Below are positions 12,747-36,889 of a DNA stretch of 36,889 nt, piece by piece. A model generated the notes under the pieces. That model did not search any database. It saw only the letters and a list, made by a program, of their open reading frames with translations, and was not told where the DNA came from. The translations under genes were made by a program, and so were the position numbers. This DNA comes from a virus. The stretch's first letter is position 1, and each line of letters starts with the position of its first letter. The stretch spans positions 1-36,889 of IMG/VR virus record IMGVR_UViG_3300022074_000147, one strand, 5' to 3'.

Positions 12747-13325
12747 ATGTTTATTGATGTTGACGCACCTTATAGTTTTATAGGTGGGTCAAAGATAGAT
12801 CATGCGGTAGTAGATGGAGTCGTAGACTTCTGGAACACATGTGACTACTTACAAAAAGAAGAAGGTCACACAGGTAAGGGTGTTAACAAGGATCTAAAAG
12901 ACTCCCTTGACTTAACCCTTCCAAGATATATCAAAGACAAAAGAATAACAGATTACATTGACGCTCTTGCAGAGGTCACGAAGGAGTATTGCAACAAATA
13001 TTATACTCTTAAATCTGTTAAGTGGGATTTATTAGAGGATTTTAATATACAGTGGTACCCCAAAGGTGGGGGATTTCATTCGTTACATTGTGAACGAAGT
13101 GATGCACACCCACAGTGTGCAGGCAGAATCTTGGCATGGATGACTTACCTAAATGATATACAAGAGGGTGGTGAAACATTCTTTGAGTATCAGCAATGTA
13201 AAGTGAAACCAGTCAAAGGTCTGACATTGATTTGGCCAGCGGACTGGACGCATTTTCATAAAGGATGCCCAGCACCCAACGAAGAGAAAATGATTACTAC
13301 TGGATGGTATGACCTCACTTTTTGA
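12747..13325 (+). CDS. 2-oxoglutarate/Fe(II) oxygenase, prolyl-4-hydroxylase-like
   Basis: A 192-residue single-domain protein with the double-stranded beta-helix signature of the prolyl-4-hydroxylase superfamily: FNIQWYPKGGGFHSLHCE, RILAWMTYLNDIQEGGETFF and LIWPADWTHFHKGC, then EEKMITTGWY. Metal ligands are probably His114, Glu116 and His171, with Lys181 binding the 2-oxoglutarate carboxylate. The usual H-x-D is H-x-E here. The substrate is unknown; such enzymes are common in cyanophages. It follows CP12 by three bases and overlaps the CpeT gene by 17 bases, so the three form a compact metabolic unit. Confidence 0.85.
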   Translation: MFIDVDAPYSFIGGSKIDHAVVDGVVDFWNTCDYLQKEEGHTGKGVNKDLKDSLDLTLPRYIKDKRITDYIDALAEVTKEYCNKYYTLKSVKWDLLEDFNIQWYPKGGGFHSLHCERSDAHPQCAGRILAWMTYLNDIQEGGETFFEYQQCKVKPVKGLTLIWPADWTHFHKGCPAPNEEKMITTGWYDLTF

Positions 13326-23840: not shown

Positions 23841-26800
23841 ATGGCACTAACTCGTCTCAAAAATATCATCACGTCAAGGACTGGTCGTATTATATACGTC
23901 AACCCTGACGACTTTGATGCTTCGGATGCTTACGATAATAGAGGTAACTCAGCGTTACGTCCGTTTAAGACTTTGCAGCGTGCATTTTTAGAAGTAGCAA
24001 GATTTTCATACAGAGTTGGACTTAGTAATGACGAATTTGACGCATTCAGTATCTACCTATATCCGTCAGAGTATGTTTTAGATAACAGACCTGGGGTTAC
24101 AGATTACAATGACGTTCAACCATTCGATGCTAACTCAAACTTTGATCTAACATCTTCAAGTAATGTCCTTTATAAATTCAATTCAACTCGTGGTGGCATT
24201 GTTGTACCCAGAGGTTGTTCAGTCGTGGGATCCGACCTCAGAAGAACTAAGATTGTACCTAAATATGTACCGTATCCAACAGTACAAGGATCCCTTGGTA
24301 TAACTGCGGTTAACGAACCAACACCAAGTGCTATATTCAGACTGACTGGTGGTTGCTATTTCTGGCAGATGTCATTCTTTGATGGAGACAACAACGGTGT
24401 ATATTATCGTGGTGATGATATTTCAACGATTGCACCTAACTTCTCACATCATAAGATCACATGTTTTGAGTATGCAAATATAACAGACCTAGACTTATAC
24501 TATCAAAAGATTTCAAAAGCATACGCTACAATTCCTGACTCATCAGGTGTAGTCGCACAAGACCAGTTACAGGCAAGAGTTGAAGAGAACAGGATCGTTG
24601 GTCCTATTAGTGATGAATTTGCTATATCACAAATTATCAGAAATGGACAAACAGCGACAGCGTTCACAGTTGACGAACTCGGCAACCCGAAGAATCATGG
24701 GTTCTCCGTGGGTGTCGCTGTTAATATTTCTGGGGTTACTGGTCCTACTGAGCAAGATCAACTCCTCTATAATGGTTCATTCTTGGTAACGTCTGCACAG
24801 GGTAACCAGTTTACCTATCAGATGTCATCTGAACCTAGTGGTAACGCTATTGGTTCTAACATACTTGTTAAGGTTGAGATTGATACTGTTGACTCAGCAT
24901 CACCATATGTGTTCAACTGTTCGCTAAGATCTGTTTGGGGCATCAATGGTATGCACGCAGATGGAGCAGAAGCGTCTGGTTTCAAATCCATGGTTGTTGC
25001 CCAGTTCACTGGTATCTCACTACAAAAAGACGACAGAGCATTTGTTGTTTATAACCAATCAACTGGACAGTATGAACCACAGGCAGCGGGTTCTGGTGCA
25101 CACATCAACGGTTTCGCAGAATATAGAAGAGGATGGCGACATGTTCACATCCATGCATCTAATGACGCATTCATACAGGTCGTTTCTGTTTTCGCTGTTG
25201 GATTTGGAGATCACTTCTTCTCAGAGAGTGGTGGTGACCTTTCAATTACTAACTCTAACTCAAACTTTGGTAATACATCATTAAGATCAAAAGGATTCAA
25301 AGCAGCATCATTTACGAAAGATAAAGCAGGACAGATAACACACGTTATACCACCAAAAGGATTGAGTGATGTAACAGAGGTATCAATCAACTGGGTTACT
25401 ATTGATATTACTTCAACAAAAGCAGAAGCAGATGCATCAAGACTATACCTATATGGTTATACATCACTAGCAGGCAAACCACCATCAAAGATACAGGGTT
25501 ATACTATTGGTGCTAGAAGAGATGACGTTAATACACCTGACAAGATATATGTTGCTCTGGTTGCATCAGGTGCATCAGAACCAACTACACACTATGCACA
25601 CATATCACCAGCAGGACCAACAGTTACAGGTACCAAAGCAGGAGATTCAGACAACCCACTAATATTTGATAGTAACAGAAACCAGTGGTACTTACAGGTA
25701 GATAGTGCTAACAACACAATATACACTACATTACAAGCGAACAGCATATATGGTAACTTAGGATTCACACCTACTACATTCATTAGAAGGGTGCCCGATG
25801 CAAGAGACCTTAATGACAGAACATATAGATTTAGATATGTACTAGACAAGGATGCATTCCCTATACCTAGACCACCTATCACTGGTTTCGTTATAGAACC
25901 TAGATCCAGTGAGTCAAACTCACCAGCGTATAGTAAAACTTACTACATCTATGATGTAGAAACATACCAGTTATTTGAACGTGGTGTTACAGATGGTATA
26001 TACTACTTGACATTACTGTCAGCGTCAGTATCCCCAGGTGCTACTAACTTCAATGACTTTGAGTTCTCACAGCAGACAGTTGATATATACCCAGCATTTG
26101 ACAGAGATAATCCAGTTGCAGATCCAGCAGCGTCAGTATCAGTTGCTGACTCTGAGGTCTTAGGATTAGTTACCACAACTGATGGTGCTACACCTACACC
26201 TAATGAGAACACACAGTTGTCTATCACAAAAGAGACAACACAGTTCTTCTTACAGGAGTCAGAAAACAACCTAGGATATACAACTACTGTTAATACATTA
26301 ACAGGTATAGTTGTTACTGCTAGATTGGGTGATGAAGAAGAAAGAAAGATTCCATTACAGTTAAACCCAGATAACTCTGTTGCTGCACTGCAAGTGGAGT
26401 TACGAAGATACTCTATTCTTAGAGCATCAGGTCATACGTTTGAGTACCTAGGTTTCGGACCAGGAAATTACTCAACAGCGTTCCCATCTACACAGGTGGA
26501 AGTTTTATCACCACAACAGGTCAGATTATCACAGTCGCTGAAAGAAGCAGCGGGTGTTGCATACTACTCTGGTGTTAACTCTGACGGTGAACTATTCGTT
26601 GGTAACCAAGTTATTAACCCAGTTACAGGTCAGATCACTAACGAAGATATTGCACAGTTAAACGTGTTAGGTGAAGAAGGAACTACTATTGAAACGTTCT
26701 CTGAATTGGTTCTTACTGATAAACTAACTGTTATTGGTGGAGCATCCAACCAGTTAGAATCTGTATTCTCAGGTCCTGTAACGATGCAGAAGAAACTGAC

Positions 26801-27419
26801 ATCACAGGATGAGATCCAGACTCTTAAATTCACATATAGTAATGACGATGGTACTGTACTGAAACAGACATTCCTAGCAAATGAACTTGCTGGTGTACCC
26901 GATCTTGCTTCTGGTCTTGCATTTAACAATGGAGACATATGCTATAACATAGACTGGACCCCAGGAAATTCACTGGGTTGGGTCTATGATGCAGGAGTAT
27001 GGTACAAGATCGGATTGAGTGATACAGCACCAATCACATCACAAAGATATAGTGGTGTAACTCATTATGGTATCGGTATGGCACCTGACGCTTCAAATAG
27101 ATTGAAGGTCAGTGGTAACTCCTTCTTCTCTGGTAACATAGATGTTACTGGTAGTTATGGTGCTGCTGATAAATATAGATTAGCGACTGGACTAGCAAAT
27201 AGTAATAACGGTGTAACATACTCTGGAAACGGATCCACAGTTACATACGCTATATCTTCTGGTCATACTGCATACTCTGTATTGGTATTCTTAAATGGTG
27301 TTTGCCAAGTCCCAGGTGTTGACTACACCGTGTCTGGTAACGCAGTTGATTTTAGTATTGCTGGGGCAACAATCCCTGCATCAGGTGATGTGATTCAAAT
27401 TCGTGAACTAGTAATCTAA
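23841..27419 (+). CDS. Very large virion structural protein, pectin-lyase-like beta-helix
   Basis: A 1192-residue protein, the longest in the window. The N-terminus (TGRIIYVNPDDFDASDAYDN, then RPFKTLQRAFLEVARFSY) and IYLYPSEYVLDNRPG with GGIVVPRGCSVVGSDLRRTK are the 'S-x-x-x-P-F-x-T-L-Q-x-A ... I-x-L-x-P-G' start of pectin-lyase-like right-handed beta-helices used in phage fibres and spikes. A region ~350-460 continues the helix (GVYYRGDDIS, NAFIQVVSVFAVGFGDHFFS). The last ~45 residues contain VLVFLNGVCQVPGVDYTVSG, a common adhesive or assembly module at fibre ends. It is probably a baseplate-attached long appendage; I recall relatives in cyanomyoviruses as unnamed structural proteins. Confidence 0.7.
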   Translation: MALTRLKNIITSRTGRIIYVNPDDFDASDAYDNRGNSALRPFKTLQRAFLEVARFSYRVGLSNDEFDAFSIYLYPSEYVLDNRPGVTDYNDVQPFDANSNFDLTSSSNVLYKFNSTRGGIVVPRGCSVVGSDLRRTKIVPKYVPYPTVQGSLGITAVNEPTPSAIFRLTGGCYFWQMSFFDGDNNGVYYRGDDISTIAPNFSHHKITCFEYANITDLDLYYQKISKAYATIPDSSGVVAQDQLQARVEENRIVGPISDEFAISQIIRNGQTATAFTVDELGNPKNHGFSVGVAVNISGVTGPTEQDQLLYNGSFLVTSAQGNQFTYQMSSEPSGNAIGSNILVKVEIDTVDSASPYVFNCSLRSVWGINGMHADGAEASGFKSMVVAQFTGISLQKDDRAFVVYNQSTGQYEPQAAGSGAHINGFAEYRRGWRHVHIHASNDAFIQVVSVFAVGFGDHFFSESGGDLSITNSNSNFGNTSLRSKGFKAASFTKDKAGQITHVIPPKGLSDVTEVSINWVTIDITSTKAEADASRLYLYGYTSLAGKPPSKIQGYTIGARRDDVNTPDKIYVALVASGASEPTTHYAHISPAGPTVTGTKAGDSDNPLIFDSNRNQWYLQVDSANNTIYTTLQANSIYGNLGFTPTTFIRRVPDARDLNDRTYRFRYVLDKDAFPIPRPPITGFVIEPRSSESNSPAYSKTYYIYDVETYQLFERGVTDGIYYLTLLSASVSPGATNFNDFEFSQQTVDIYPAFDRDNPVADPAASVSVADSEVLGLVTTTDGATPTPNENTQLSITKETTQFFLQESENNLGYTTTVNTLTGIVVTARLGDEEERKIPLQLNPDNSVAALQVELRRYSILRASGHTFEYLGFGPGNYSTAFPSTQVEVLSPQQVRLSQSLKEAAGVAYYSGVNSDGELFVGNQVINPVTGQITNEDIAQLNVLGEEGTTIETFSELVLTDKLTVIGGASNQLESVFSGPVTMQKKLTSQDEIQTLKFTYSNDDGTVLKQTFLANELAGVPDLASGLAFNNGDICYNIDWTPGNSLGWVYDAGVWYKIGLSDTAPITSQRYSGVTHYGIGMAPDASNRLKVSGNSFFSGNIDVTGSYGAADKYRLATGLANSNNGVTYSGNGSTVTYAISSGHTAYSVLVFLNGVCQVPGVDYTVSGNAVDFSIAGATIPASGDVIQIRELVI

Positions 27420-27431
27420 GGTTAGAATCTA

Positions 27432-28298
27432 ATGTCAACCAAAATAATTGGTAATCAGATTAGCGATGCGACGAGAGCGATCATTACTGCCCTCACTGTC
27501 ACAGAGCAAGTCAACCTACCAAACTTAAATCAATCACAGATAAATGCACTGGGAACTGTTGCGTTAGGTACGATTGTATATAACACAACTGAAAAGATCT
27601 TCCAAGGTTATCTACCAGATGTCAATGGACCAGGGTCACCAGGGTGGGATGACGTTGGTGGTGGTGGACCGAGTATTGGTGAAGACTCAATAATTAGAAC
27701 TAACGGTGATACCATATCCGAGAACCTAACAATAGGACCAAGTGCTAACAATGGTACGGAGTTTACTAACGGTTTTACTGCTGCTCCTATTACAGTTGCA
27801 AATGGTTACACTGTTACTATTGAGACTGGTGCAACATGGACTATCATTGGTCCTGACGAGGATTTAAGTGCGTACAGATATTATAACAACTTAGGTATCA
27901 ATAACCATCTAAGAATGGTCCCTGGATCTACATTTGAGTTTGGGCAGACAAAAGAAAGAATACTATCTTTTGCTAAGTCTGGTACAACAACAGTGGATCA
28001 CAGCAAAGCGAACGTATTTGCTACCACTAACCCAACAGGTTATAACGGTAACATTACTATGAACTTTAATAATGTACCTAATGAATCTGGTATCATGTAC
28101 AACGCATCTGTATTGATATTTCAACAGAATGGTAATGGTTCTATAACAAGTATTCAAGTGAATGGTAGTACAGCAAATACTAAATACAACGTTGATGACC
28201 TAACCCCTGGGGATTATGCTGACTCATATCAGATCATGTTCTTCTTAGAGGGTACACAGTGGCAAGCATTCGCAATGGTAACTAACTTCGCTCAATAA
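27432..28298 (+). CDS. Tail-fibre-like structural protein
   Basis: A 288-residue protein with TEQVNLPNLNQSQINALGTV near the start and LGTIVYNTTEKIFQGYLPD, the 'G-T-I-V-Y-N-T-T-x-x-x-x-Q' signature of phage and marine fibre proteins. The second half (GFTAAPITVANGYTVTIETG; ILSFAKSGTTTVDHSKANVF) is beta-rich and ends YQIMFFLEGTQWQAFAMVTN. The centre is a capsule of Gly/Thr/Asn-rich repeats. It lies between the beta-helix protein and the Cys/Gly-rich adhesin and is likely one of the receptor-binding appendages. Confidence 0.65.
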   Translation: MSTKIIGNQISDATRAIITALTVTEQVNLPNLNQSQINALGTVALGTIVYNTTEKIFQGYLPDVNGPGSPGWDDVGGGGPSIGEDSIIRTNGDTISENLTIGPSANNGTEFTNGFTAAPITVANGYTVTIETGATWTIIGPDEDLSAYRYYNNLGINNHLRMVPGSTFEFGQTKERILSFAKSGTTTVDHSKANVFATTNPTGYNGNITMNFNNVPNESGIMYNASVLIFQQNGNGSITSIQVNGSTANTKYNVDDLTPGDYADSYQIMFFLEGTQWQAFAMVTNFAQ

Positions 28299-28300
28299 TT

Positions 28301-29242
28301 ATGCCGATTGGAACTAACAAAATTATGGTCATGGGTGGTGGAGGAGGATCCAACCTACCCTACATATCAGCGTCGGGTGGATCTCTCTCAACTGGATCAC
28401 ATTCCTCTGCTGGTAATTTACCATTAACACTACACTCATGGCAGTCTAGTGGAGTTAGTACTTTTACGATAAACGATATTACAGGTAGTGGTGAGGGTGT
28501 TATATATGTGTGGGCATGGGGTGCTGCTGGTGGAAACGGTGGTCAAGGTGGAGCAGGAGGAGGTTCTGGTGGATTTGCATTTGGAAGTTTTCAAGTAACA
28601 GCAGGACAAACTTTTAGAGTTGCAGTTGGTGGCGGTGGTGGTAATGGTAGTGGTTGTCATGGTTGTTGGGGAGCAGGAGGAGCAGGCAGTAATGGAAGTT
28701 CATGGTGTAATGGAGGACAAGGAAGATATGCAGGATGTAGAGGTTGCTCTGCTGGTGGCGGAGGTGGCGGTGCTGGAACCGTCTTATATAACGGTAGTGA
28801 GGCGTTCGGAAACATATGGTTAGTCGCTGGTGCAGGAGCTGGCGGTGGCGGTCGAGAGGGATGCGGAGGTGCTGGTCAAGGTGGTGGAGGAAATCAAAAT
28901 GGTCAAGGTGGTTCATGTAGTGCTGGTGGTGGTGCGTGTTGTGCTAATGGTACTGGTGGAGTAGGTTCTAACGGACGCCCAGGTGGAGATCGCTCTGGCG
29001 GTGGCGGTGGTGGAGGAGGTTACGCTGGTGGAAACGTCGGTGGAGACCCAGGATGTGACTGTCATGGTGCTGCTGGTGGTGGCGGTGGTTCTAATTGGGT
29101 CATCGGTTCTGCACTAACAGACGACACCGAAGCAGGAAACTATGGTACCACAGCAGAATCTGGACACTCATTTAGAAATAGTGCAGGAGACAGAAACGGT
29201 GGTACAGGTCGCATGGTTATTGGTTACGAGAGACAAACCTAA
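28301..29242 (+). CDS. Glycine-rich adhesin with eleven cysteines
   Basis: A 313-residue protein dominated by Gly runs (GGNGGQGGAGGGSGG; SGGGGGGGGYAGG). The body begins VIYVWAWGAAGGNGG and ends GGTGRMVIGYERQT, the frame found in glycine-rich phage adhesins (polyglycine-sandwich folds such as phage S16 gp38-type tips), where loops between Gly strands contact the receptor. It carries eleven cysteines in the Gly region, several in CHGC, CRGC, CC and CDCH clusters, which suggests disulfides or bound metal. Likely a receptor-binding tip; context supports this as it follows fibre genes. The stop overlaps the next ATG (TAATG). Confidence 0.7.
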   Translation: MPIGTNKIMVMGGGGGSNLPYISASGGSLSTGSHSSAGNLPLTLHSWQSSGVSTFTINDITGSGEGVIYVWAWGAAGGNGGQGGAGGGSGGFAFGSFQVTAGQTFRVAVGGGGGNGSGCHGCWGAGGAGSNGSSWCNGGQGRYAGCRGCSAGGGGGGAGTVLYNGSEAFGNIWLVAGAGAGGGGREGCGGAGQGGGGNQNGQGGSCSAGGGACCANGTGGVGSNGRPGGDRSGGGGGGGGYAGGNVGGDPGCDCHGAAGGGGGSNWVIGSALTDDTEAGNYGTTAESGHSFRNSAGDRNGGTGRMVIGYERQT

Positions 29243-29808
29243 TGGATTTTATTGATAGAGATACGATTGGGGATACCCAACGTCACACACATTTTAATTT
29301 AATACTCAATATAGACGAGAATACTATATTCATTTCTCGTACTATATTTCATGCCCCACATATTCACTGTCATGTGGGTGTAATTAAGGATGGTTCTAAT
29401 GGATCTATTCCTACTGCATATGATAACCTTAAATATGGTGTAGATATTGTAAGGCAATCAACCAAAGCATCAACATGGTCTACTACACATGATGGACCAA
29501 CGTTCTCTGATCAAGCATGTCTAGAAGAGATGTGGATCGGAGGTTTTGCTGACGGTGACCACATAGAGGAGGGAACAAACCTGTATGATGCAACATTCTG
29601 GTTCGTGCATGGAGATAGTCCAGTAGCAGAAAAGAAAGTTGTAATCAACATACAACCTTGTAACTCCAACACACCAGGGACATTTGAGCGTTCTGCTATA
29701 AATAAAATGATATACAACCCTGGATATTACCCCACTGACGATGAGTGGGCATCACATCAAAAGTATTTGGAAGATGGAACAGAACGTCCCATTGCACCAA
29801 ATGGATAA
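29242..29808 (+). CDS. Protein of unknown function in the fibre module
   Basis: A 188-residue protein: HTHFNLILNIDENTIFISRT, FHAPHIHCHVGVIKDGSNG, then IYNPGYYPTDDEWASHQKYL. It is soluble, with His/Asp-rich strands and no signal peptide. It is translationally coupled to the Cys/Gly adhesin (TAATG), so it may be its chaperone, a trimerisation cap or a structural partner; that is inferred from position only. Its stop overlaps a late-promoter-like box. Confidence 0.55.
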   Translation: MDFIDRDTIGDTQRHTHFNLILNIDENTIFISRTIFHAPHIHCHVGVIKDGSNGSIPTAYDNLKYGVDIVRQSTKASTWSTTHDGPTFSDQACLEEMWIGGFADGDHIEEGTNLYDATFWFVHGDSPVAEKKVVINIQPCNSNTPGTFERSAINKMIYNPGYYPTDDEWASHQKYLEDGTERPIAPNG

Positions 29809-29811
29809 ATA
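29805..29811 (+). promoter_or_regulatory. Late-promoter-like box ATAAATA
   Basis: GATAAATA (one mismatch to TATAAATA) covers the stop codon of the preceding gene, 17 bases before the ATG at 29828, with an AAAAGG ribosome-binding sequence (29816-29821) between. Confidence 0.5.
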
Positions 29812-29827
29812 AAAGAAAAGGTATCAC

Positions 29828-30631
29828 ATGACTCGGTTAACCGTAGCACAAGTTAAAGACCTTAGTAATCAAGGCGGTATGTCGTTCTCAAACGGTTCGA
29901 TAACTGCTAATGGTACCCTTAATGTAACTAATATTGTTATTAACGGAACTGTATCTGGTTCATCAGGTTATATAATTCCCTCACAGTCTGGACAGTCTGG
30001 GGAATACTTGTACACAAATGGATCTACAATAAGTTGGGCACCCGCGAGTACTAACTTAGGTATTCCCAATGGAATTTCAGTATATAATGGTAGTACTACA
30101 TGGAACAAACCCTCTAACGTAAAAAGAATTTGGGTTAAATGCACCGCTGGTGGTGGTGGAGGATCAGGTTATGGTGAATCTGGTGCTGCTGGTGCACATA
30201 CAGAAACATTTGTTGATGTAACAAACATTAATAGTATATCTGTTAACGTTGGTGGACAAGGTAGTGGTACTAACTACTCAGGACGTGCGGGTAATGGTGG
30301 TACATCATCATTCGGTAACTATTGTTCATCAGGTGGTGGACAGGGTGCAAACCGTAGACAACAACATGACGGTGCTACTGGTGGATCACCAAACCAAGGT
30401 TCAGTTAGAATCTATGGTGGTTCTTCACAAGGACACCGAAACCCACCAGGGTTAGGTCATGGTGGACATAGTTTCTGGGGTGGATCTGCACCCACTGCTC
30501 ATAGACAACAACAATGGGCACAGAGACATAGAGAACATGCTGCATATGGGGCAGGCGGTTCATCAGCAAGAAACTCTGAAAGGGGTGGAGACGGACGTCA
30601 AGGAATCATCGTAGTCTACGAATTCATTTGA
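29828..30631 (+). CDS. Glycine-rich adhesin, tandem paralogue A
   Basis: A 267-residue fibre-tip-like protein. N-terminal ~85 residues: VAQVKDLSNQGG and TLNVTNIVINGTVSGSSGYI, a short beta stalk. The middle TTWNKPSNVKRIWVKCTAGG opens a Gly-rich domain (the 'W-x-x-P-x-x-v-x-x-i-x-V-x-x-x-G-G-G-G-G' motif of glycine-rich adhesins) that ends GGDGRQGIIVVYEF. Receptor binding is the likely role. Its C-terminal domain is nearly identical to that of the next gene while the stalks differ. A late-like box (29805) and AAAAGG precede it. Confidence 0.7.
   Translation: MTRLTVAQVKDLSNQGGMSFSNGSITANGTLNVTNIVINGTVSGSSGYIIPSQSGQSGEYLYTNGSTISWAPASTNLGIPNGISVYNGSTTWNKPSNVKRIWVKCTAGGGGGSGYGESGAAGAHTETFVDVTNINSISVNVGGQGSGTNYSGRAGNGGTSSFGNYCSSGGGQGANRRQQHDGATGGSPNQGSVRIYGGSSQGHRNPPGLGHGGHSFWGGSAPTAHRQQQWAQRHREHAAYGAGGSSARNSERGGDGRQGIIVVYEFI
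30371..30420 (+). repeat. 50-bp direct repeat, copy 1 (shared with 31203-31252)
   Basis: A 50-base stretch in adhesin A is identical to 31203-31252 in adhesin B, coding for the same Gly-rich segment (GATGGSPNQGSVRIYGG). Flanking codons differ synonymously, so the block may mark recent gene conversion or recombination between the two tips. Confidence 0.85.
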
Positions 30632-30652
30632 TATAAATAACAACGAAGGAGA
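30632..30652 (+). promoter_or_regulatory. Late promoter box and strong ribosome binding site before adhesin B
   Basis: Exact TATAAATA at 30632-30639, then AAGGAGA at 30646-30652, eleven bases before the ATG at 30663. This is the clearest promoter plus Shine-Dalgarno pair in the window and gives adhesin B its own expression unit. Confidence 0.65.
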
Positions 30653-30662
30653 TTAGTAATCA

Positions 30663-31463
30663 ATGAGTACCCTTAAAGTAACATCAATTAGAGACCTCTC
30701 AGGTTCTGGTGGACTGAACCTTAGTTCTGGTTCTATCACAGTGAACGGTACTCTAACTGTTAGTAACATCAATATTAACGGAACGATCGCTGGATCAAGT
30801 TCACAGGTCATTCCGTCAATATCAGGTCAGTCAGGTAAATTCCTGACTACAAACGGATCCACAATGTCATGGGGAACCATACAGACAGGTGGTGGACCAA
30901 AATCAATTTCCGTGTATAATAGTAGTAGCACATGGAACAAACCATCAGGTATTAAACGTATCTGGGTTATGTGTACTGCTGGTGGTGGCGGTGGATCAGG
31001 TTATGGTGAATCAGCGGGTGCTGGTGCTCATACTGAATCTATTGTCAACGTTGAGAACATCAACTCTATCTCAGTGTCCGTTGGTGGACAAGGTGGTGGT
31101 ACTGGTTATTCTGGACGTGGTGGTAACGGAGGAACTTCATCATTTGGTAACTATTGTTCATCAGGTGGTGGTCAAGGTGCTAACAGACGTCAGCAGCATG
31201 AAGGTGCTACTGGTGGATCACCAAACCAAGGTTCAGTTAGAATCTATGGTGGATCTGGTCAGGGTCATAGAAACCCACCAGGGTTAGGTCATGGAGGTAC
31301 CTCATTCTGGGGTGGTTCTGCTCCTACTGCTCACAGACAGCAGCAATGGGCACAAAGACACAGAGATCACGCTGCATATGGTGCTGGTGGTTCATCAGGA
31401 AGAAACTCCGAAAGGGGTGGTGATGGACGTCAGGGCATTATTGTAGTTTACGAATTCGATTAA
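30663..31463 (+). CDS. Glycine-rich adhesin, tandem paralogue B
   Basis: A 266-residue paralogue of the preceding gene. The N-terminal stalk (IRDLSGSGGLNLSSGSITVN; VSNININGTIAGSSSQVIPS) matches paralogue A only moderately, whereas from STWNKPSGIKRIW onward the Gly-rich tip is almost the same, including GSAPTAHRQQQWAQRH and the end GGDGRQGIIVVYEFD. Differences in the tip are few (for example GTSFWGG for GHSFWGG, HRDHAAY for HREHAAY). A likely receptor-binding tip; two near-copies may broaden or vary host range. It has its own late box and ribosome binding site. Confidence 0.7.
   Translation: MSTLKVTSIRDLSGSGGLNLSSGSITVNGTLTVSNININGTIAGSSSQVIPSISGQSGKFLTTNGSTMSWGTIQTGGGPKSISVYNSSSTWNKPSGIKRIWVMCTAGGGGGSGYGESAGAGAHTESIVNVENINSISVSVGGQGGGTGYSGRGGNGGTSSFGNYCSSGGGQGANRRQQHEGATGGSPNQGSVRIYGGSGQGHRNPPGLGHGGTSFWGGSAPTAHRQQQWAQRHRDHAAYGAGGSSGRNSERGGDGRQGIIVVYEFD
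31203..31252 (+). repeat. 50-bp direct repeat, copy 2 (shared with 30371-30420)
   Basis: Identical to 30371-30420. A second identical tract of about 25 bases, coding for NPPGLGHG, lies downstream in both genes. Confidence 0.85.
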
Positions 31464-31467
31464 AACA

Positions 31468-31998
31468 ATGGGAAAAAGAGCATTAGTCCGTGCAGACGGA
31501 TTTATCACAGACATCGTTGAAGCAGGAAGCGAATTCGATGTTTACACAGGACCTGGGTCTACCTTAAAATGGATGGACATACCAGACGAAGCATCAAACT
31601 TATGGAAAATGGAATTAGGAGAATGGATTCCTGATTTTGAATACCATGACCCAGAATTAATTCGCCAAGTAAGTTATGGCGAACCAGGGTTGCAACTTTC
31701 TATGATCTATAATGATATCAAGAATGGTACATTAGATCAGACAGGAGAGTTCTATAAGCATATCTTAAATGTTAAAGAGACATGCCCTAAGGTACAATAT
31801 CAAGATGTAGAAGTCTTAGATGAGATGAGTGGTGAAACTCATATTGAGTCACAGAAAGTGTTACCAGATGAACCATTCCCTCATGATGAAACCATGCCTT
31901 GTTGGTTATCACCAGAGGAATTAGATGATGACACTCAGAAAGAGTTCAGCATAGGAAAATACGCACCAGAAGCAGCAAACCCAGAACCTGACGTTTAA
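31468..31998 (+). CDS. Fibre-module protein, tail-fibre-assembly/chaperone-like
   Basis: A 176-residue acidic, soluble protein. The middle part, RQVSYGEPGLQLSMIYNDIK followed by GTLDQTGEFYKHILNVKETC, follows the 'Y-P-x-x-x-x-Q-L-x-x-L-x-x-D-I-x-x-G-x-L-d ... f-y-x-x-I-x-x-V-K' pattern seen in small phage proteins next to fibres and in fibre-assembly or tail-chaperone domains. The N-terminus (MGKRALVRADGFITDIVEAG) is beta-rich and the C-terminus is acidic. It comes right after adhesin B with a five-base gap. A role in folding or attaching the adhesins is inferred. Confidence 0.55.
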   Translation: MGKRALVRADGFITDIVEAGSEFDVYTGPGSTLKWMDIPDEASNLWKMELGEWIPDFEYHDPELIRQVSYGEPGLQLSMIYNDIKNGTLDQTGEFYKHILNVKETCPKVQYQDVEVLDEMSGETHIESQKVLPDEPFPHDETMPCWLSPEELDDDTQKEFSIGKYAPEAANPEPDV

Positions 31999-32007
31999 CT
32001 TTATTAA

Positions 32008-33579
32008 ATGATTCGTAATGTACTCATAGTGGGGGGTGGTACCGCTGGTTGGATGACCGCTACCGCCTTATTGAAACTTTGCCCACATATTAAAACCAGT
32101 CTAATAGAGTCGAAAGATCAACCCATCATAGGTGTAGGAGAGTCTACCCTTGGGCAGATCAACGACTTTTTTGCTTTGTTAGATCTTCATGATTCTGACT
32201 GGATGAAGGCGACAGGAAGCACATATAAAACAAACATAAGATTTAATGACTTCTATAAGAAGGGAGAGACATGGGATTATCCTTTCGGTAAGTCAACTAT
32301 CGTACATGATTTACCACATGGGTGGATGTCATGGTTCGCATTAAATATAACCAAACCTGATAAGTGGACAAGAGATACATTCTCTCGTTCTATGAATATC
32401 ATAGGTCATCTAGCACATAACAATAAACTCACAGTAGATAACGATAAGTTTCCATTTGATCATGACACTGCATATCACATGGATGCAGTTAAGTTTAGTC
32501 AATGGTTAAGAGATAATAGATGTCAAGAAGTAAATCATATGTACGGTACTATTACTGGTGCTGTTAAAGATGAGCATGGTAACATTGACATATTATATGC
32601 AGGAAACAGAGAACTAAAATATGACTTGTATATTGACTGCACAGGGTTCAGATCAGTATTGTTAGAAGGTATTATGGATGTGCCATTCAAATCATTCCAT
32701 GTCAATGATGGTGGATGTCTGTTAAATGATACAGCAGTCACATGTCATATGCCACACCAACATCAACAGGTGGAGGTCACTAACACAACTAACTGCACAG
32801 CAGTCACGAATGGATGGGTCTGGGATGTACCACTATGGGAAAGATCAGGGTGTGGTTATGTTCACTCAAAAGATTTCGAGCAAGCACCCGAGTTGGAGTT
32901 ATATAATTATTTGGTAGGTACCAGAGGTAAGAAGAGGGCAGAGGAAGCAACGTTTAGGACAGTACCATTTAAGAATGGTAAGCATGAGAAGGCATGGGAA
33001 AAGAATGTAGTTGCAGTTGGTCTATCTAATTGTTTTGTTGAACCACTAGAAGCAACAGGTCTATTGACAACTCATGAACAAATCATTAGAATATGTAACA
33101 CATTGTCAGGTAGAGACGGTTTTGTTCCCAAAGTTGAGAAAGATATGCTAAACTTAGTGAATGATCTTGAAATAGAGGGATTCAAGAACTTCATTGCTGC
33201 TCATTATGCCTTTTCTGCTCGTGAGTCACCCTATTGGCAAACCGTAGCAAATGATGTAGAATATGATTTTACCACTGCATCATTAGATAATCTATTCGTC
33301 AAATATGCTTCCGAGAAACACGTTGCTTACGAGTGGTCGGGGGATCAAAACTATAATGACGGACTTAGATACATAGGAGCAGGGATGGGTTTTAACCCGC
33401 TAAATAAACATACATTGAAACTAACCCGCTTACAGAATAACATTACACCAGAAGCAGATCTAATTGAACTGAACAAGGCAGAACTGTTATTTGAGGGTTG
33501 GAACAAAGCAATGACCATATGGTGTGATGACCTACCTACATCATACGAATTTCAAAAGCAAACAATTTACAAAGACTGA
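32008..33579 (+). CDS. Flavin-dependent tryptophan halogenase-like protein
   Basis: A 523-residue protein of the flavin-dependent halogenase family (PrnA 538 aa). FAD-binding motif GGGTAG at residues 9-14 (NVLIVGGGTAGWMTA), then GVGESTLGQINDFFALL, the family catalytic lysine Lys74 in STYKTNIRF (PrnA Lys79), the FRSVLLEG segment, and the diagnostic W-x-W-x-I-P motif as W270-V-W-D-V-P275 in WVWDVPLWERSGCGYVHS. FVEPLEATGL marks the substrate side. The family uses FADH2, O2 and chloride or bromide to make HOX that halogenates an indole; the phage substrate is unknown and need not be free tryptophan. Similar genes occur in cyanomyoviruses near fibres. A flavin reductase would come from the host. 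Confidence 0.9.
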   Translation: MIRNVLIVGGGTAGWMTATALLKLCPHIKTSLIESKDQPIIGVGESTLGQINDFFALLDLHDSDWMKATGSTYKTNIRFNDFYKKGETWDYPFGKSTIVHDLPHGWMSWFALNITKPDKWTRDTFSRSMNIIGHLAHNNKLTVDNDKFPFDHDTAYHMDAVKFSQWLRDNRCQEVNHMYGTITGAVKDEHGNIDILYAGNRELKYDLYIDCTGFRSVLLEGIMDVPFKSFHVNDGGCLLNDTAVTCHMPHQHQQVEVTNTTNCTAVTNGWVWDVPLWERSGCGYVHSKDFEQAPELELYNYLVGTRGKKRAEEATFRTVPFKNGKHEKAWEKNVVAVGLSNCFVEPLEATGLLTTHEQIIRICNTLSGRDGFVPKVEKDMLNLVNDLEIEGFKNFIAAHYAFSARESPYWQTVANDVEYDFTTASLDNLFVKYASEKHVAYEWSGDQNYNDGLRYIGAGMGFNPLNKHTLKLTRLQNNITPEADLIELNKAELLFEGWNKAMTIWCDDLPTSYEFQKQTIYKD

Positions 33580-33581
33580 TT

Positions 33582-34088
33582 ATGCCTGACGTAGTATTAT
33601 CTGATGACCTTAAAGGTCCAATTCCTGAGATACCTCAGGAACTAAAAGAAGCAGCAGAAGAACAAGCAGCAGAGGATATCAAAGAGGTTGCTTCTGCAAA
33701 AGAAGCAGTCAAATCATTCCAAGATCTTTGGATGAACCTAAGATACCAGCATAGAGAGAAGTACACTGAATATGCTGAACTTCAAGCGTCTCTATCTGCA
33801 ATGTCATTTGATAAAGCAGAGACAAGAGTTAACTTCACAACTATGAACGCACTAAGAGACGAGATAGTTAAGATAGAAGGTGGACTTGAAACACTTAATT
33901 TATATCGTGTGTTAGTATTAGGTGAAGAAGCAGAACCATGGTTAGAAGTTGAACTTAAAGAGAAACGTAAGAAGATCAAAGTTAGAACTGCATCACCATA
34001 CTCTAAGAAAGGTGGAGACTACTCTAAGTATGCTAACTGGGAAGCAGACGCAACAGATACTGACAGCAAACTTAACAAGACTGTTTAA
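33582..34088 (+). CDS. Coiled-coil protein of unknown function
   Basis: A 168-residue acidic, Ala/Glu/Lys-rich protein: IPQELKEAAEEQAAEDIKEV, then a helical middle (YTEYAELQASLSAMSFDKAE) and a basic patch (KEKRKKIKVRT) followed by a flexible tail. Long helices suggest a coiled-coil. It begins three bases after the halogenase stop and is coupled to the oxygenase by TAATG. No family recognised; possibly an adaptor for the enzymes around it. Confidence 0.55.
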   Translation: MPDVVLSDDLKGPIPEIPQELKEAAEEQAAEDIKEVASAKEAVKSFQDLWMNLRYQHREKYTEYAELQASLSAMSFDKAETRVNFTTMNALRDEIVKIEGGLETLNLYRVLVLGEEAEPWLEVELKEKRKKIKVRTASPYSKKGGDYSKYANWEADATDTDSKLNKTV

Positions 34089-34798
34089 TGAATCTAGACT
34101 ATATCTTTCCCACACCTGTTTGGTGGGTTGATCTTGACATTGATCTCGCAGAGATGGGACGTATCTGTGTGGATACTGCTATGAATATGGAAGGTAAAGA
34201 CCGAAGTAATCGGGGGATGTTGAACTATCAGTCCCCTGATTTTTTGGGTGAAAAGATTATTAATGACCCAGAACTAGAAGGTGATGAATTTAAGAAACTA
34301 CTCATCTTAATCAAAGAGAAAGCATGTGAGGCATTTGATAGTTTTGGTTCTATGACTACTACTATTGAGTATGCAAATGTCTGGATGAATATTAATGGTA
34401 AGGGTGGATATAATGAGGTTCATACACACCCAGGTGCTGTAATGTCTGGTGCCTTTTATGTAACAGTACCCCCAGGTCCAGTGGGTAAACTTACATTTCA
34501 TAGGAATGCTATTGAGGGTTATGTAATACATTCTCTTGGTACATCTGAGGATATGAGTACAGCAGAGGTGCCACATACACATTCTACATGGGCATATCCA
34601 CCTGTAAATGGTAGACTTATGTTATTTCCTGCATGGGTAGGACATGGTGTTCGTGAAAATGAAACTGATGAAGAACGTATCAGTATTTCATTTAACTTTA
34701 TTCCTGTAAGAACAAAGAAAGATATGCAAGACATTATTAAGAATAATGAAATATCTATTGATGTTACACCGTACAATCGTAAAAACAATGCTACTTAA
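34088..34798 (+). CDS. Putative 2OG-Fe(II) oxygenase
   Basis: A 236-residue protein resembling the TIGR02466-type putative oxygenases of cyanobacteria and their phages: start DYIFPTPVWWVDLDID, EYANVWMNINGKGGYNEVHT then HPGAVMSGAFYVTVPPGP, PPVNGRLMLFPAWVGHGVRE and ERISISFNF. Likely Fe ligands are among His112/His114 and His186, with Arg197 for the 2-oxoglutarate. The H-x-D motif of classical enzymes is not clear (it reads V-H-T-H), as is usual in this group. Substrate unknown. The gene contains a terminator-like hairpin (34209-34245). It overlaps the previous stop (TAATG) and the next gene by 11 bases. Confidence 0.75.
   Translation: MNLDYIFPTPVWWVDLDIDLAEMGRICVDTAMNMEGKDRSNRGMLNYQSPDFLGEKIINDPELEGDEFKKLLILIKEKACEAFDSFGSMTTTIEYANVWMNINGKGGYNEVHTHPGAVMSGAFYVTVPPGPVGKLTFHRNAIEGYVIHSLGTSEDMSTAEVPHTHSTWAYPPVNGRLMLFPAWVGHGVRENETDEERISISFNFIPVRTKKDMQDIIKNNEISIDVTPYNRKNNAT
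34209..34245 (+). terminator. Terminator-like hairpin inside the oxygenase gene
   Basis: ATCGGGGGA (34209-34217) pairs with TCCCCTGAT (34232-34240), nine base pairs with one G-T, a 14-base loop (34218-34231), followed by a run of six T (34240-34245). It has the look of a Rho-independent terminator yet sits about 120 bases inside an open reading frame, so it may be an attenuator or partial stop within the operon, or chance. Confidence 0.4.
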
Positions 34799-35453
34799 TG
34801 TATTCCCAACCAAAGTTAAATGTGGGGTGATAGAACCCTCTCAGAGCGACCTAGAAGCGTCTCTGAGAGTCCTAAATGAATACTGGGAGCATTCCAGTAG
34901 AGCAGACTATGGATTGGAGACTGGATGGTCTACTGGTTCACAGAGAGGTGGTAAAGAATTGTTTGACCATACTGAATTAGACTGGTTGACACACCCTATA
35001 ATGGAAGCAGCAGCAGACTATTGGAGATATGATTTAAACTATCGTAGAGACTACCACATATACATGGATAGTATGTGGGCGAACAAGCATTTGGAAGGTG
35101 ACACCACAGGTCCTCACTGTCATATGTCAGGTGGACGTAGCAAATCACATGTATCAATAGTATATTATTTAAAGAAGACAGAACACGCAGGCAATTTAGA
35201 ATTTAAGAATCCATTAGAACAAATAGTAAGAATGTGTCCACTCAATGAGGACTATGATGACTGGGCAAGAGATTCCGCACACCATCAGGGTATATCATAT
35301 GACTGGCAAGAGGTTGATGCTAAATCATATGATTATGTAATATTTCCATCATGGTTAAAACATAGAACACAACCCAGTAAAGGAGATAGGATTGCTATTA
35401 GTATAAACGTAGCAGGATGCACTATTGACCCAGCAGAGGGAGACTTTGATTGA
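34788..35453 (+). CDS. Putative 2OG-Fe(II) oxygenase, second of a pair
   Basis: A 221-residue protein starting at ATG 34788 (MLLNVFPTKVKCGVIEPSQS), inside the end of the previous gene. It contains DTTGPHCHMSGGRSKSHVS then IVYYLKKTEHAGNLEFKNP and DYVIFPSWLKHRTQPSKGDR with AISINVAG, the order expected of a cupin-fold oxygenase: near-iron His110/His112, distal His192 and Arg201. A 2OG oxygenase is inferred from this layout and from its neighbours; again H-x-H replaces H-x-D. Substrate unknown. A strong inverted repeat lies early in the gene (34838-34869). Overlaps the next gene by 8-29 bases depending on the start. Confidence 0.7.
   Translation: MLLNVFPTKVKCGVIEPSQSDLEASLRVLNEYWEHSSRADYGLETGWSTGSQRGGKELFDHTELDWLTHPIMEAAADYWRYDLNYRRDYHIYMDSMWANKHLEGDTTGPHCHMSGGRSKSHVSIVYYLKKTEHAGNLEFKNPLEQIVRMCPLNEDYDDWARDSAHHQGISYDWQEVDAKSYDYVIFPSWLKHRTQPSKGDRIAISINVAGCTIDPAEGDFD
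34838..34869 (+). repeat. Perfect inverted repeat (hairpin) in the early coding region
   Basis: CTCTCAGAG (34838-34846) and CTCTGAGAG (34861-34869) are exact reverse complements; CG (34847-34848) with CG (34858-34859) extends the stem across a one-base bulge. It is about 50 bases after the start codon, has no T-run, and could affect ribosome transit or RNA stability. Confidence 0.6.
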
Positions 35454-36144
35454 TCTACCATTCCTAGACCCTAAACTATTCTATGCGGATGATAGTCCGA
35501 GGGTATGGAGGAAGGCAGTACCTAAATTTGTAACATGGGAAGATGCCGAAAATGCCCTAAATGCTCCTTGGAATCACGTTATCACAGTAATAGATGACGA
35601 CCACAGTCGTATGAGACTAGATGAGGTAGAAGAACCATGGTTTTATAAACAGATACCACGCAAGCAGGAACTATTTGAACTGGCAAACGAAGGATATACT
35701 ATAAACATATGTCAGTATGGTCATGGCAACAGATATATTGAGGAGTTAATGGAGGGTTTGGAGTCTACATTCGATGGATGTGCAGACTGTCATATCTTTA
35801 TCACTACTGGTAATGACAACAGTCATCCATCATTTAAACCACACTTCGACAAACCTTGTAACTTCATAATGCAGATGGAAGGTAAGACACGTTGGCAAGT
35901 ATATAATGAAAGATGTAGTGCATTAGTAGAGGGTAGCGACCCACCATATACACCGAGTGAAGATGAGTTAACAATCGCAATAGATACTGTACTAGAAGAG
36001 GGAGATGTGCTATACTTTGGTAGTAGAGCATACCATAATACTAGACACACAGAGGGTAGTAGACTCTCAATTAGTATTCCTATCTGGTTCCCTAAAAGAT
36101 GCGAATGTTCTGATAGGACACATTATAAATTGATTCATGAATAG
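35425..36144 (+). CDS. RoxA/JmjC-like 2OG-Fe(II) hydroxylase, tandem copy A
   Basis: A 239-residue cupin-like protein: LPFLDPKLFYADDSPRVWRK start, IFITTGNDNSHPSFKPHFDK, CNFIMQMEGKTRWQVYNERC and EEGDVLYFGSRAYHNTRHTE then SRLSISIPI. This matches bacterial ribosomal oxygenases (YcfD/RoxA) and JmjC-fold hydroxylases, in which H-x-D (His140, Asp142 here) and a distal His (His204) bind iron and Arg213 binds the co-substrate; the C-terminal dimerisation helices of YcfD are missing (YcfD ~370 aa). The start at ATG 35425 overlaps the previous gene by 29 bases; TTG 35446, preceded by GAGGGAG, is a good alternative. It is followed at once by a paralogue. Confidence 0.8.
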   Translation: MTQQRETLIDLPFLDPKLFYADDSPRVWRKAVPKFVTWEDAENALNAPWNHVITVIDDDHSRMRLDEVEEPWFYKQIPRKQELFELANEGYTINICQYGHGNRYIEELMEGLESTFDGCADCHIFITTGNDNSHPSFKPHFDKPCNFIMQMEGKTRWQVYNERCSALVEGSDPPYTPSEDELTIAIDTVLEEGDVLYFGSRAYHNTRHTEGSRLSISIPIWFPKRCECSDRTHYKLIHE

Positions 36145-36838
36145 ACTTATTCTACCATTTTTAAATCCTAAACTATTTGTGTGTGGTGATAAACCACAGG
36201 TATGGAGGAAGGCATTACATGACCCTATGCAATATGTTTCATGGGAGACAGTACAACATTGCTTCAACAACCCATGGTATTATAGAACCCAGTTACTTAA
36301 TAGGGAAGGACGTAGATTACATTTACCAGAGAAGTTTGAAGTATGGTATGAGAAAGGAGTACCACATAAAGCAGAAATGTTTGCAGCAATAAATGAAGGA
36401 CACACATTTATTATTGAACAGTATGGACATTACAATGAAGCAGTTGATAATCTATTAGAGAACTTTGAATCAACATTTGACTGTAATTGTGACGCACATA
36501 TATTTGGGGCAGCAAAACCTGATAGCACATCATTTGGTTCACACTGGGATATACCACCGAACTTTATATGTCAGATAGATGGAGAGACACATTGGAATGT
36601 ATTTGAAGAGCGTTGTTCTGGTTTAATAGAAATGACTGATGAACCTTATCTACCAGATAAGAACAACCACGAATTGACTGTCGCATTAGATATAATATTA
36701 AAGGCGGGGGACGTCATGTACATACCCGCTAGAACTTATCACAAACCACTACCAAGTGGAAGGAGATTATCAATGAGCATACCTTGTATGTACCCAGTAG
36801 ATGTAGAGAGCGACAGGAAGCAATATGTTATTCAATAA
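36137..36838 (+). CDS. RoxA/JmjC-like 2OG-Fe(II) hydroxylase, tandem copy B
   Basis: A 233-residue paralogue of copy A: LPFLNPKLFVCGDKPQVWRK, HIFGAAKPDSTSFGSHWDIP, FICQIDGETHWNVFEERCSG and LKAGDVMYIPARTYHKPLPS then RRLSMSIPC. Iron ligands His136, Asp138 and His202 and Arg210 are conserved, so both copies look active. The start overlaps copy A by 8 bases. Substrate unknown; ribosomal or phage proteins are candidates from family knowledge. Confidence 0.8.
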   Translation: MNRLILPFLNPKLFVCGDKPQVWRKALHDPMQYVSWETVQHCFNNPWYYRTQLLNREGRRLHLPEKFEVWYEKGVPHKAEMFAAINEGHTFIIEQYGHYNEAVDNLLENFESTFDCNCDAHIFGAAKPDSTSFGSHWDIPPNFICQIDGETHWNVFEERCSGLIEMTDEPYLPDKNNHELTVALDIILKAGDVMYIPARTYHKPLPSGRRLSMSIPCMYPVDVESDRKQYVIQ

Positions 36839-36889
36839 TTGTTATCCATTGCCTGATCCAATGGTAGATCAGATTGAACAAGTAGTAAC
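36825..36889 (+). CDS. Start of a further gene, truncated by the window edge
   Basis: ATG 36825 overlaps the end of copy B and gives MLFNNCYPLPDPMVDQIEQV, open to the last base. Continued tight packing supports it as the next member of the oxygenase cluster, but only 21 residues are visible and no family can be named. Confidence 0.45.
   Translation, partial: MLFNNCYPLPDPMVDQIEQVV

Follow-up and report, generated by a model that had tools for sequence, protein, structure and literature searches.

Halogenase and oxygenase genes linked to glycine-rich tail-tip adhesins in cyanomyoviruses: a candidate tail-tip maturation module

What brings five predicted oxygen-using enzymes together just behind the tail-tip genes of a cyanophage? 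The question is raised by virus record IMGVR_UViG_3300022074_000147, analysed here over its whole 36,889 bases (the window), a fragment of a T4-like cyanomyovirus that is closest, among annotated phages, to the cyanomyoviruses S-WAM1, P-RSM6 and S-SZBM1. At 32008-36838 it carries a nearly gapless enzyme cassette, which stands a short way behind two Gly-rich tail-tip adhesins and encodes, all on the + strand, a VirX1-type flavin-dependent halogenase (32008..33579), a protein of 168 aa with an EGGLETL motif (C168; 33582..34088), two PF13759 oxygenases (34088..34798 and 34788..35453) and two JmjC_2 hydroxylases (35425..36144 and 36137..36838). The enzyme set and the adhesins form a conserved module, and we lean slightly towards the view that it is a tail-tip maturation module, whose enzymes would add halogen and hydroxyl groups to residues in the Gly-rich tips.

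The cassette lies in a single-strand gene run (23841-36838) in which no gap exceeds 31 bp and the genes overlap at each of the last five junctions. The run comprises, in order, a long fibre, a fibre-associated protein, two unassigned genes, two Gly-rich tips, a phrog_1787 protein (31468..31998, +; E 5.5e-24), the halogenase, C168, the two PF13759 genes and the two JmjC_2 genes. The first of the tips, both of which are candidate substrates, matches Gly_rich_2 (29828..30631, +; PF21722 E 5.5e-8, 33.5 bits against a cut-off of 24.3) and the tail family phrog_863, and the second (30663..31463, +) is assigned by homology only, with 79% identity to the first in the adhesin alignment. The halogenase matches PF04820 (E 2.1e-86) and phrog_2928 (E 4.1e-144), the oxygenase pair PF13759 (E 2.1e-24 and 2e-11; 86.3 and 44.6 bits, Pfam cut-off 27) and the hydroxylase pair PF08007 (E 3.3e-16 and 2e-15) and phrog_8014 (E 1.4e-67 and 1.9e-91). 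No curated family matches C168 above cut-off; its relatives adjoin the halogenase. The open reading frame (ORF) of the second PF13759 oxygenase opens at 34746, and the start at 34788 is probable from homologues. An earlier sequence-only reading of this DNA had described a halogenase, two 2-oxoglutarate (2OG) oxygenase-like proteins and two JmjC-like hydroxylases in one run behind a receptor-binding module, joined by overlaps and short gaps, with a small protein among them and an extra gene starting at the window edge, and our searches agree with this description throughout. The last gene is an ATG frame (36825..36889, +), whose start overlaps the preceding stop and which is cut by the edge.

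Is this arrangement peculiar to the window? S-WAM1, S-SZBM1, P-RSM6 and many viral contigs show the cassette genes in the same order, which is thus not due to chance. A tblastn search of 50,697 phage records matched the second adhesin in 19; JmjC_2 is found in 27 records and the halogenase in 64. All 19 adhesin records belong to both other sets, and they are the same 19 in which JmjC_2 lies inside the cassette, always with a halogenase. The remaining eight JmjC_2 records, from Syn30 (2), S-P4 (2), S-E7, Sf-CH1b and S-H38 (2), have the gene outside the cassette, after a cobS/porphyrin-biosynthesis annotation in Syn30 and Sf-CH1b and among transfer RNA (tRNA) and photosynthesis genes in S-H38. 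Profile search detected adhesins also in Sf-FR1, outside the tblastn list. Whole-record searches of 15 isolates, picked partly for having or lacking the module, found a strong adhesin, an adjacent halogenase and a cassette JmjC_2 together in seven and jointly absent in eight.

For viral contigs we fetched four sets of loci, merged loci sharing DNA into groups (which are still related to each other) and labelled ORFs with profiles built here; ORF calling misses some overlapping genes, such as one P-TIM40 oxygenase. Counts for two of the four sets, including the adhesin set, are among the matches listed, and the JmjC_2 set is the best 80 of 128 loci. Starting from the adhesin, a halogenase follows within 6 kb downstream in 26/27 groups, an oxygenase within 8 kb in 24/26 and JmjC_2 within 10 kb in 21/24; the sole exception with room for a halogenase (L126) has a weak adhesin match (score 33.6). 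Starting from JmjC_2, the halogenase lies upstream in 39/39 groups and the adhesin in 35/35, with C168 in 40/41. Starting from the halogenase, among the matches listed, an oxygenase follows within 3 kb in 38/59 groups and the adhesin lies upstream in 39/51, not in all, so the halogenase has other settings too. Five groups possess adhesin and halogenase with no labelled oxygenase, which marks these two as the core pair. A downstream halogenase also accompanies 270 of 271 distinct adhesin ORFs, a figure we do not use as evidence since most of these loci were fetched for their halogenase or JmjC_2. The phrog_1787 protein, found between adhesins and halogenase in most cassettes, lies within 4 kb upstream of the halogenase in 41/55 contig groups.

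Does the module also move as a unit? Two conspecific isolates of S-RIM44, ES_42_0910 and W2_10_0709, have exchanged the whole adhesin-plus-enzyme block between near-identical flanks: the left flank is 97.6% identical and ends before the last fibre genes, the right one 94.8-97.6% identical from just before gp13. Between the flanks, the fibre genes can be matched only piecewise, at about 65-70% identity, and the adhesins and enzymes do not match at the DNA level at all. The ES_42_0910 block holds three adhesins, phrog_1787, two halogenases, a protein of 235 aa, six oxygenases (JmjC_2 among them) and C168. Its place in W2_10_0709 is taken by another tip protein, a protein of 121 aa and a single PF13759 oxygenase. 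Among ten haplotypes of this slot, with Syn1 and W2_10_0709 counted once, the halogenase is present in 4/4 with Gly_rich_2 or adhesin-profile tips (ES_42_0910, Sf-FR1, Sf-CH3 and Sf-CH11) and in 0/6 others (the Syn1 type, S-PM2, S-H9-2, S-RIM32, ACG-2014e and Sf-CH1b; Fisher p 0.005, a guide only, since the haplotypes are related). Tips were assigned by Pfam in ES_42_0910 and Sf-CH11 and by the adhesin profile in Sf-FR1 and Sf-CH3 (E 6e-46 to 5e-60). Sf-CH11 has tips of a different Gly_rich_2 lineage, one on each side of its halogenase and four oxygenase-like genes. DNA identity to ES_42_0910 over gp13-gp15 fails to predict halogenase presence: the Syn1 type (97.6%) and S-H9-2 and S-RIM32 (about 84%) lack it, and at 73-79% it is present in Sf-FR1, Sf-CH3 and Sf-CH11 and absent from S-PM2, Sf-CH1b and ACG-2014e. 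The joint task envisaged by the sequence-only reading thus gains support, since halogenase, JmjC_2 and adhesin co-occur and swap as a block.

Could the enzymes be cargo of the host-recognition region, tied to the tips by block exchange only and modifying some other virion or host-surface target, such as the long fibre, or host surface polymers so as to block superinfection? A large hypervariable host-recognition cluster that gathers extra genes has been described in pelagimyophages and cyanomyophages (PMC7029224), and the fibre genes of the S-RIM44 types are themselves only about 65-70% identical. In one slot, however, the halogenase keeps company with Gly-rich tips and not with other tips, in Sf-CH11 even with tips of another Gly_rich_2 lineage, and the module is placed ahead of helicase-side genes in some genomes and ahead of gp13 in others. 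We therefore regard this explanation as rather unlikely. The association of the enzyme genes with adhesins suggests instead that the proteins with which the virus probably grips its host may be chemically altered by its own enzymes.

What reaction might the halogenase catalyse? It retains the dinucleotide-binding GxGxxG (as GGGTAGWM), WVWDVP, Lys74 and EPLE with Glu348, in agreement with the motifs typical of PF04820 and with the sequence-only reading, which had pointed to Lys74 and W-x-W-x-[IV]-P. K74 and E348 are invariant in 10/10 aligned phage halogenases (window numbering, not reconciled with K79 of VirX1). Its top match in the Protein Data Bank (PDB) is VirX1 (6QGM), over the full length (E 1e-100). 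In free-tryptophan halogenases (PrnA, RebH, PyrH), residues near the C-terminus bind the amino acid part of tryptophan; alignments of the window enzyme to Trp halogenases stop at query residues 412-463. The crystallised VirX1 is identical to Syn9 gp42 across 530 residues except the first, and the window enzyme is 39% identical to gp42, which in both Syn9 and Syn10 belongs to a cassette: gp38-gp40 and a second halogenase precede it and gp43-gp54 follow. According to a review (PMC8407142), VirX1 prefers iodide and has a large, accessible active site and a wide substrate range, including many small aromatics in vitro. On the halogenase tree, the idea that adhesin-linked members form a single clade is unsupported, as the label needs 15 changes (shuffled mean 44.3); most of them nonetheless fall within one phage clade. 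That phage clade also contains a halogenase from a 'Deltaproteobacteria' metagenome-assembled genome (L279:9977-11578), which may reflect transfer, a prophage or a misbinned contig.

The whole cassette is not shared by cellular relatives: our JmjC_2, adhesin, C168 and phrog_1787 models match none of the best 80 bacterial halogenase loci (L279-L358). In these loci, whose halogenases are the bacterial ones nearest to those of phages, large ORFs of a cluster represented by a TonB plug protein lie beside the halogenase in 32/80, a cluster with a Cupin_8 representative recurs in six and DUF6445 proteins in three; DUF6445 also matches Syn9 gp52, a phage cassette gene (E 1.9e-13). In parallel to the phage cassette, these bacterial loci link a halogenase and hydroxylase-like genes to a surface receptor.

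The promiscuity of VirX1 towards small aromatics in vitro (PMC8407142) would suit auxiliary metabolism: a halogenated small molecule would be the product of the halogenase, and the oxygenases would have metabolites or the cellular 2OG level as their targets. This is the published reading, which treats cyanophage halogenase and 2OG genes as auxiliary metabolic, repair or antibiotic genes, the halogenase giving antibiotic protection and the 2OG enzymes tuning NtcA or repair (PMC2984593, PMC3037559, PMC9964418). A Pfam scan of the window, however, recognised no other biosynthesis gene in the run, the structurally solved JmjC_2 relatives act on proteins, and in this subgroup it is tip genes, not metabolic ones, that are linked to the enzymes. 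We consider a purely metabolic role unlikely here.

What do the motifs and folds of the oxygenases show? In the JmjC_2 proteins H136-x-D138 and H202 are invariant in 48/48 aligned sequences, and H-x-D is found in 210/212 aligned ORFs. The model of the second one (36137-36838; mean predicted local distance difference test, pLDDT, 90.2) has MINA53 and NO66 as its nearest matches (Z 19.9, root-mean-square deviation 2.9 over 218-219 residues), followed by YcfD (Z 18.5), enzymes acting on His or Arg in proteins (PMC4295552). Both PF13759 proteins have H-x-H in place of the canonical Fe(II)/2OG H-x-D/E...H triad (H112-x-H114...H186...R197 in the first), so the H-x-D...H triads that the sequence-only reading ascribed to the hydroxylases hold for the last two complete cassette genes, the JmjC_2 pair, only. 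H-x-H is present in 673/689 aligned PF13759 ORFs, and the other oxygenase subfamilies examined have H-x-D or H-x-E. The model of the first PF13759 protein (34088..34798; mean pLDDT 78.0) most resembles 3BVC (Z 20.9) and 2RG4 (Z 20.5), structures of the same family that also contain H-x-H-P; next come a bacterial prolyl 4-hydroxylase (Z 16.7) and PHD2 (about 16). We rejected PF13759 as a marker of the cassette, as it is present at dispersed places in 15/15 genomes tested.

The resemblance to NO66, MINA53 and YcfD could mean that the JmjC_2 enzymes serve host takeover by hydroxylating host ribosomal proteins as these do. Yet the phage protein, with 233 residues, is far shorter than the solved ribosomal oxygenases (about 360-460) and probably lacks room for the full set of their domains, which includes dimerisation and C-terminal winged-helix domains, and JmjC_2 lies within the adhesin cassette in 19/27 isolate records, so we hold this to be very improbable. 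The sequence-only reading had offered phage fibres or adhesins, host ribosomes or a small molecule as targets; the linkage to Gly-rich tips favours the tail-tip adhesins, and we found nothing pointing to the other two. Mere shared ancestry, i.e. frozen synteny of one phage lineage without a functional tie, fits the fact that every carrier found is a related T4-like phage and many loci are close relatives, but we give it hardly any credence, given that gene content and order vary within the module, conspecific isolates differ in whether they have the block, and the linkage is kept by JmjC_2 members down to about 31% identity.

If the tips are the substrates, which residues might be modified? 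Among 280 distinct adhesins, the columns Y150 (279), H180 (278), H203 (277), H225 (259) and W92 (252) are kept. Being aromatic or His, these residues are possible targets of such enzymes, but structural constraint could also conserve them. Richness in His proved to be no mark of the oxygenase set: groups without oxygenases are His-rich as well (4.3% vs 5.2%). The C168 profile is partly driven by a short motif. A protein of 61-66 aa with a LEGGLETL-like motif, which resembles part of C168 and is possibly a fibre-assembly helper, precedes gp13 in 11/11 slot loci (L359-L367, L270, L271); only the larger C168 form, therefore, accompanies the halogenase. Another family, of 235-288 aa with Cys-Pro motifs and no convincing Pfam match (L006:9571-10359, L005:9547-10413, L271:35849-36556 and L363:11767-12579), lies between halogenase and C168 in cassettes of the Syn9, P-TIM40, S-RIM44 and Sf-FR1 types and is absent from the window type.

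For the activity, substrate, timing and benefit of the tip-maturation module we propose the following scheme. Halogenases of this kind need reduced flavin adenine dinucleotide (FADH2), O2 and halide. The late fibre gene run would produce the Gly-rich receptor-binding tips and, alongside, the enzymes tailoring them. Iodine, bromine or chlorine would be put on exposed Tyr, Trp or His of the tip by the VirX1-type halogenase, whose FADH2 a host reductase probably supplies; before assembly, the JmjC_2 enzymes would hydroxylate its His or Arg, and PF13759 and other 2OG-type enzymes further residues. C168 may present or chaperone the tips, and the modified residues would alter receptor binding or stability. 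By analogy, a peptide or protein substrate is plausible, as there are flavin halogenases that act on peptides and structured proteins (SrpI and MibH; PMC10858898, PMC10286304). The enzyme set comprises one or two halogenases and up to about ten oxygenases. More tentatively, and with somewhat less than even confidence, we suggest a swappable cyanophage toolkit akin to those of ribosomally synthesised and post-translationally modified peptides (RiPPs), which would introduce halogenated and hydroxylated residues into receptor-binding tips by means of an enzyme set matched to the tip and exchanged with it, the natural substrate of VirX1 being the neighbouring adhesin.

Several points weigh against tip maturation. 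Tip modification is inferred, and a modified residue has been seen in none of the tips so far. Host-recognition regions gather many unrelated genes, so that linkage alone could be hitch-hiking, and swapped blocks and shared ancestry make our counts partly dependent. The same broad halogenase clade is also found without this adhesin, in S-B64 the adhesin match is weak and lies far from the halogenase, and Sf-CH1b combines a 28% Gly tip lacking a Pfam match and one PF13759 gene with no halogenase. PF13759 genes are dispersed over all 15 genomes, and the same enzyme families occur elsewhere in them. The sequence-only reading had named independent occurrence in related phages as the observation that would speak against a joint task; the co-occurrence and block exchange of halogenase, JmjC_2 and adhesin run counter to it, although some independence remains, with the halogenase in 64 records against 19 for the adhesin, JmjC_2 outside the cassette in 8/27 and PF13759 dispersed in 15/15 genomes. 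Liquid chromatography-mass spectrometry of S-SZBM1 virions listed 30 proteins (PMC9146016), including 51, 52, 53 and 54; homologues in the window are the long fibre/structural protein (23841..27419, +; S-SZBM1_52, a virion protein detected in Table 1 of that work) and the fibre-associated protein (27432..28298, +; S-SZBM1_51, a single peptide in virions). That list does not contain adhesins 48-50, the phrog_1787 protein 47 or enzymes 42-46, and even the virion presence of the tips is thus unproven. The absence of the enzymes fits non-virion enzymes, and that of the tips fits low copy number, poor digestion, unsearched modifications or true absence. In S-CREM1 virions 14 phage proteins were detected (PMC9964418).

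Elsewhere in the window, upstream of the fibre genes, 17492-20239 matches phage glycine dehydrogenase (MED4-213, P-HM1 and P-HM2; 73-77% DNA identity) and 12747-13325, outside the cassette, encodes another 2OG-FeII_Oxy_3 oxygenase (PF13640, E 6.4e-10). An Rfam search and a tRNA scan of the window gave no matches. The window has 34 promoter-like sites against 40.6 in shuffled sequences, i.e. fewer, and 10 terminator-like sites against 6.6, an unclear excess; with counts this near to those of shuffles an internal promoter is neither supported nor ruled out.

Why would a tip-maturation module matter? Virion glycosylation by phage-encoded enzymes is known. The enzyme families discussed here are known as well, and the tip-tailoring module, if confirmed, would be a new form of virion-protein modification by phage-encoded enzymes; a literature search over titles and abstracts did not find a halogenase joined with a phage tail tip. 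Phage halogenases and many cyanophage 2OG oxygenases are usually classed as auxiliary metabolic genes, with unknown substrates. Should our proposal be true, VirX1 would gain a concrete, testable natural substrate, a group of 'metabolic' genes would move into host recognition, and the known means by which a virus alters its adhesins would come to include halogenation and hydroxylation. Existing virion mass spectra, in which such modifications were not looked for, may already contain the decisive evidence. The metal and cosubstrate of the H-x-H...H enzymes of the large PF13759 family may also deserve direct study.

How does the module compare with known systems? The host recognition cluster of PMC7029224 is, like this part of the window, a hypervariable block of fibres and extra genes between conserved structural genes, but the account given there stresses glycosyltransferases, and halogenases or oxygenases acting on tips are not its emphasis. 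NO66, MINA53 and YcfD share the JmjC_2 fold and H-x-D...H with the phage protein, which differs from these longer ribosomal oxygenases in its small size and its linkage to tail tips. The nearest structural relatives of the PF13759 pair, 3BVC and 2RG4, are both uncharacterised bacterial proteins that have the family and H-x-H-P in common with it. The RiPP halogenases SrpI and MibH are flavin-dependent like the phage enzyme and, as reported in PMC10858898 and PMC10286304, act on Trp in peptides or proteins; their genes lie in clusters for peptide natural products, and SrpI works with a leader peptide, whereas for the phage tips no leader or core is known. Another close system is VirX1 itself, the flavin-dependent iodinase of cyanophage Syn10, whose cassette position in Syn9 and Syn10 is the same as that of the halogenase in the window.

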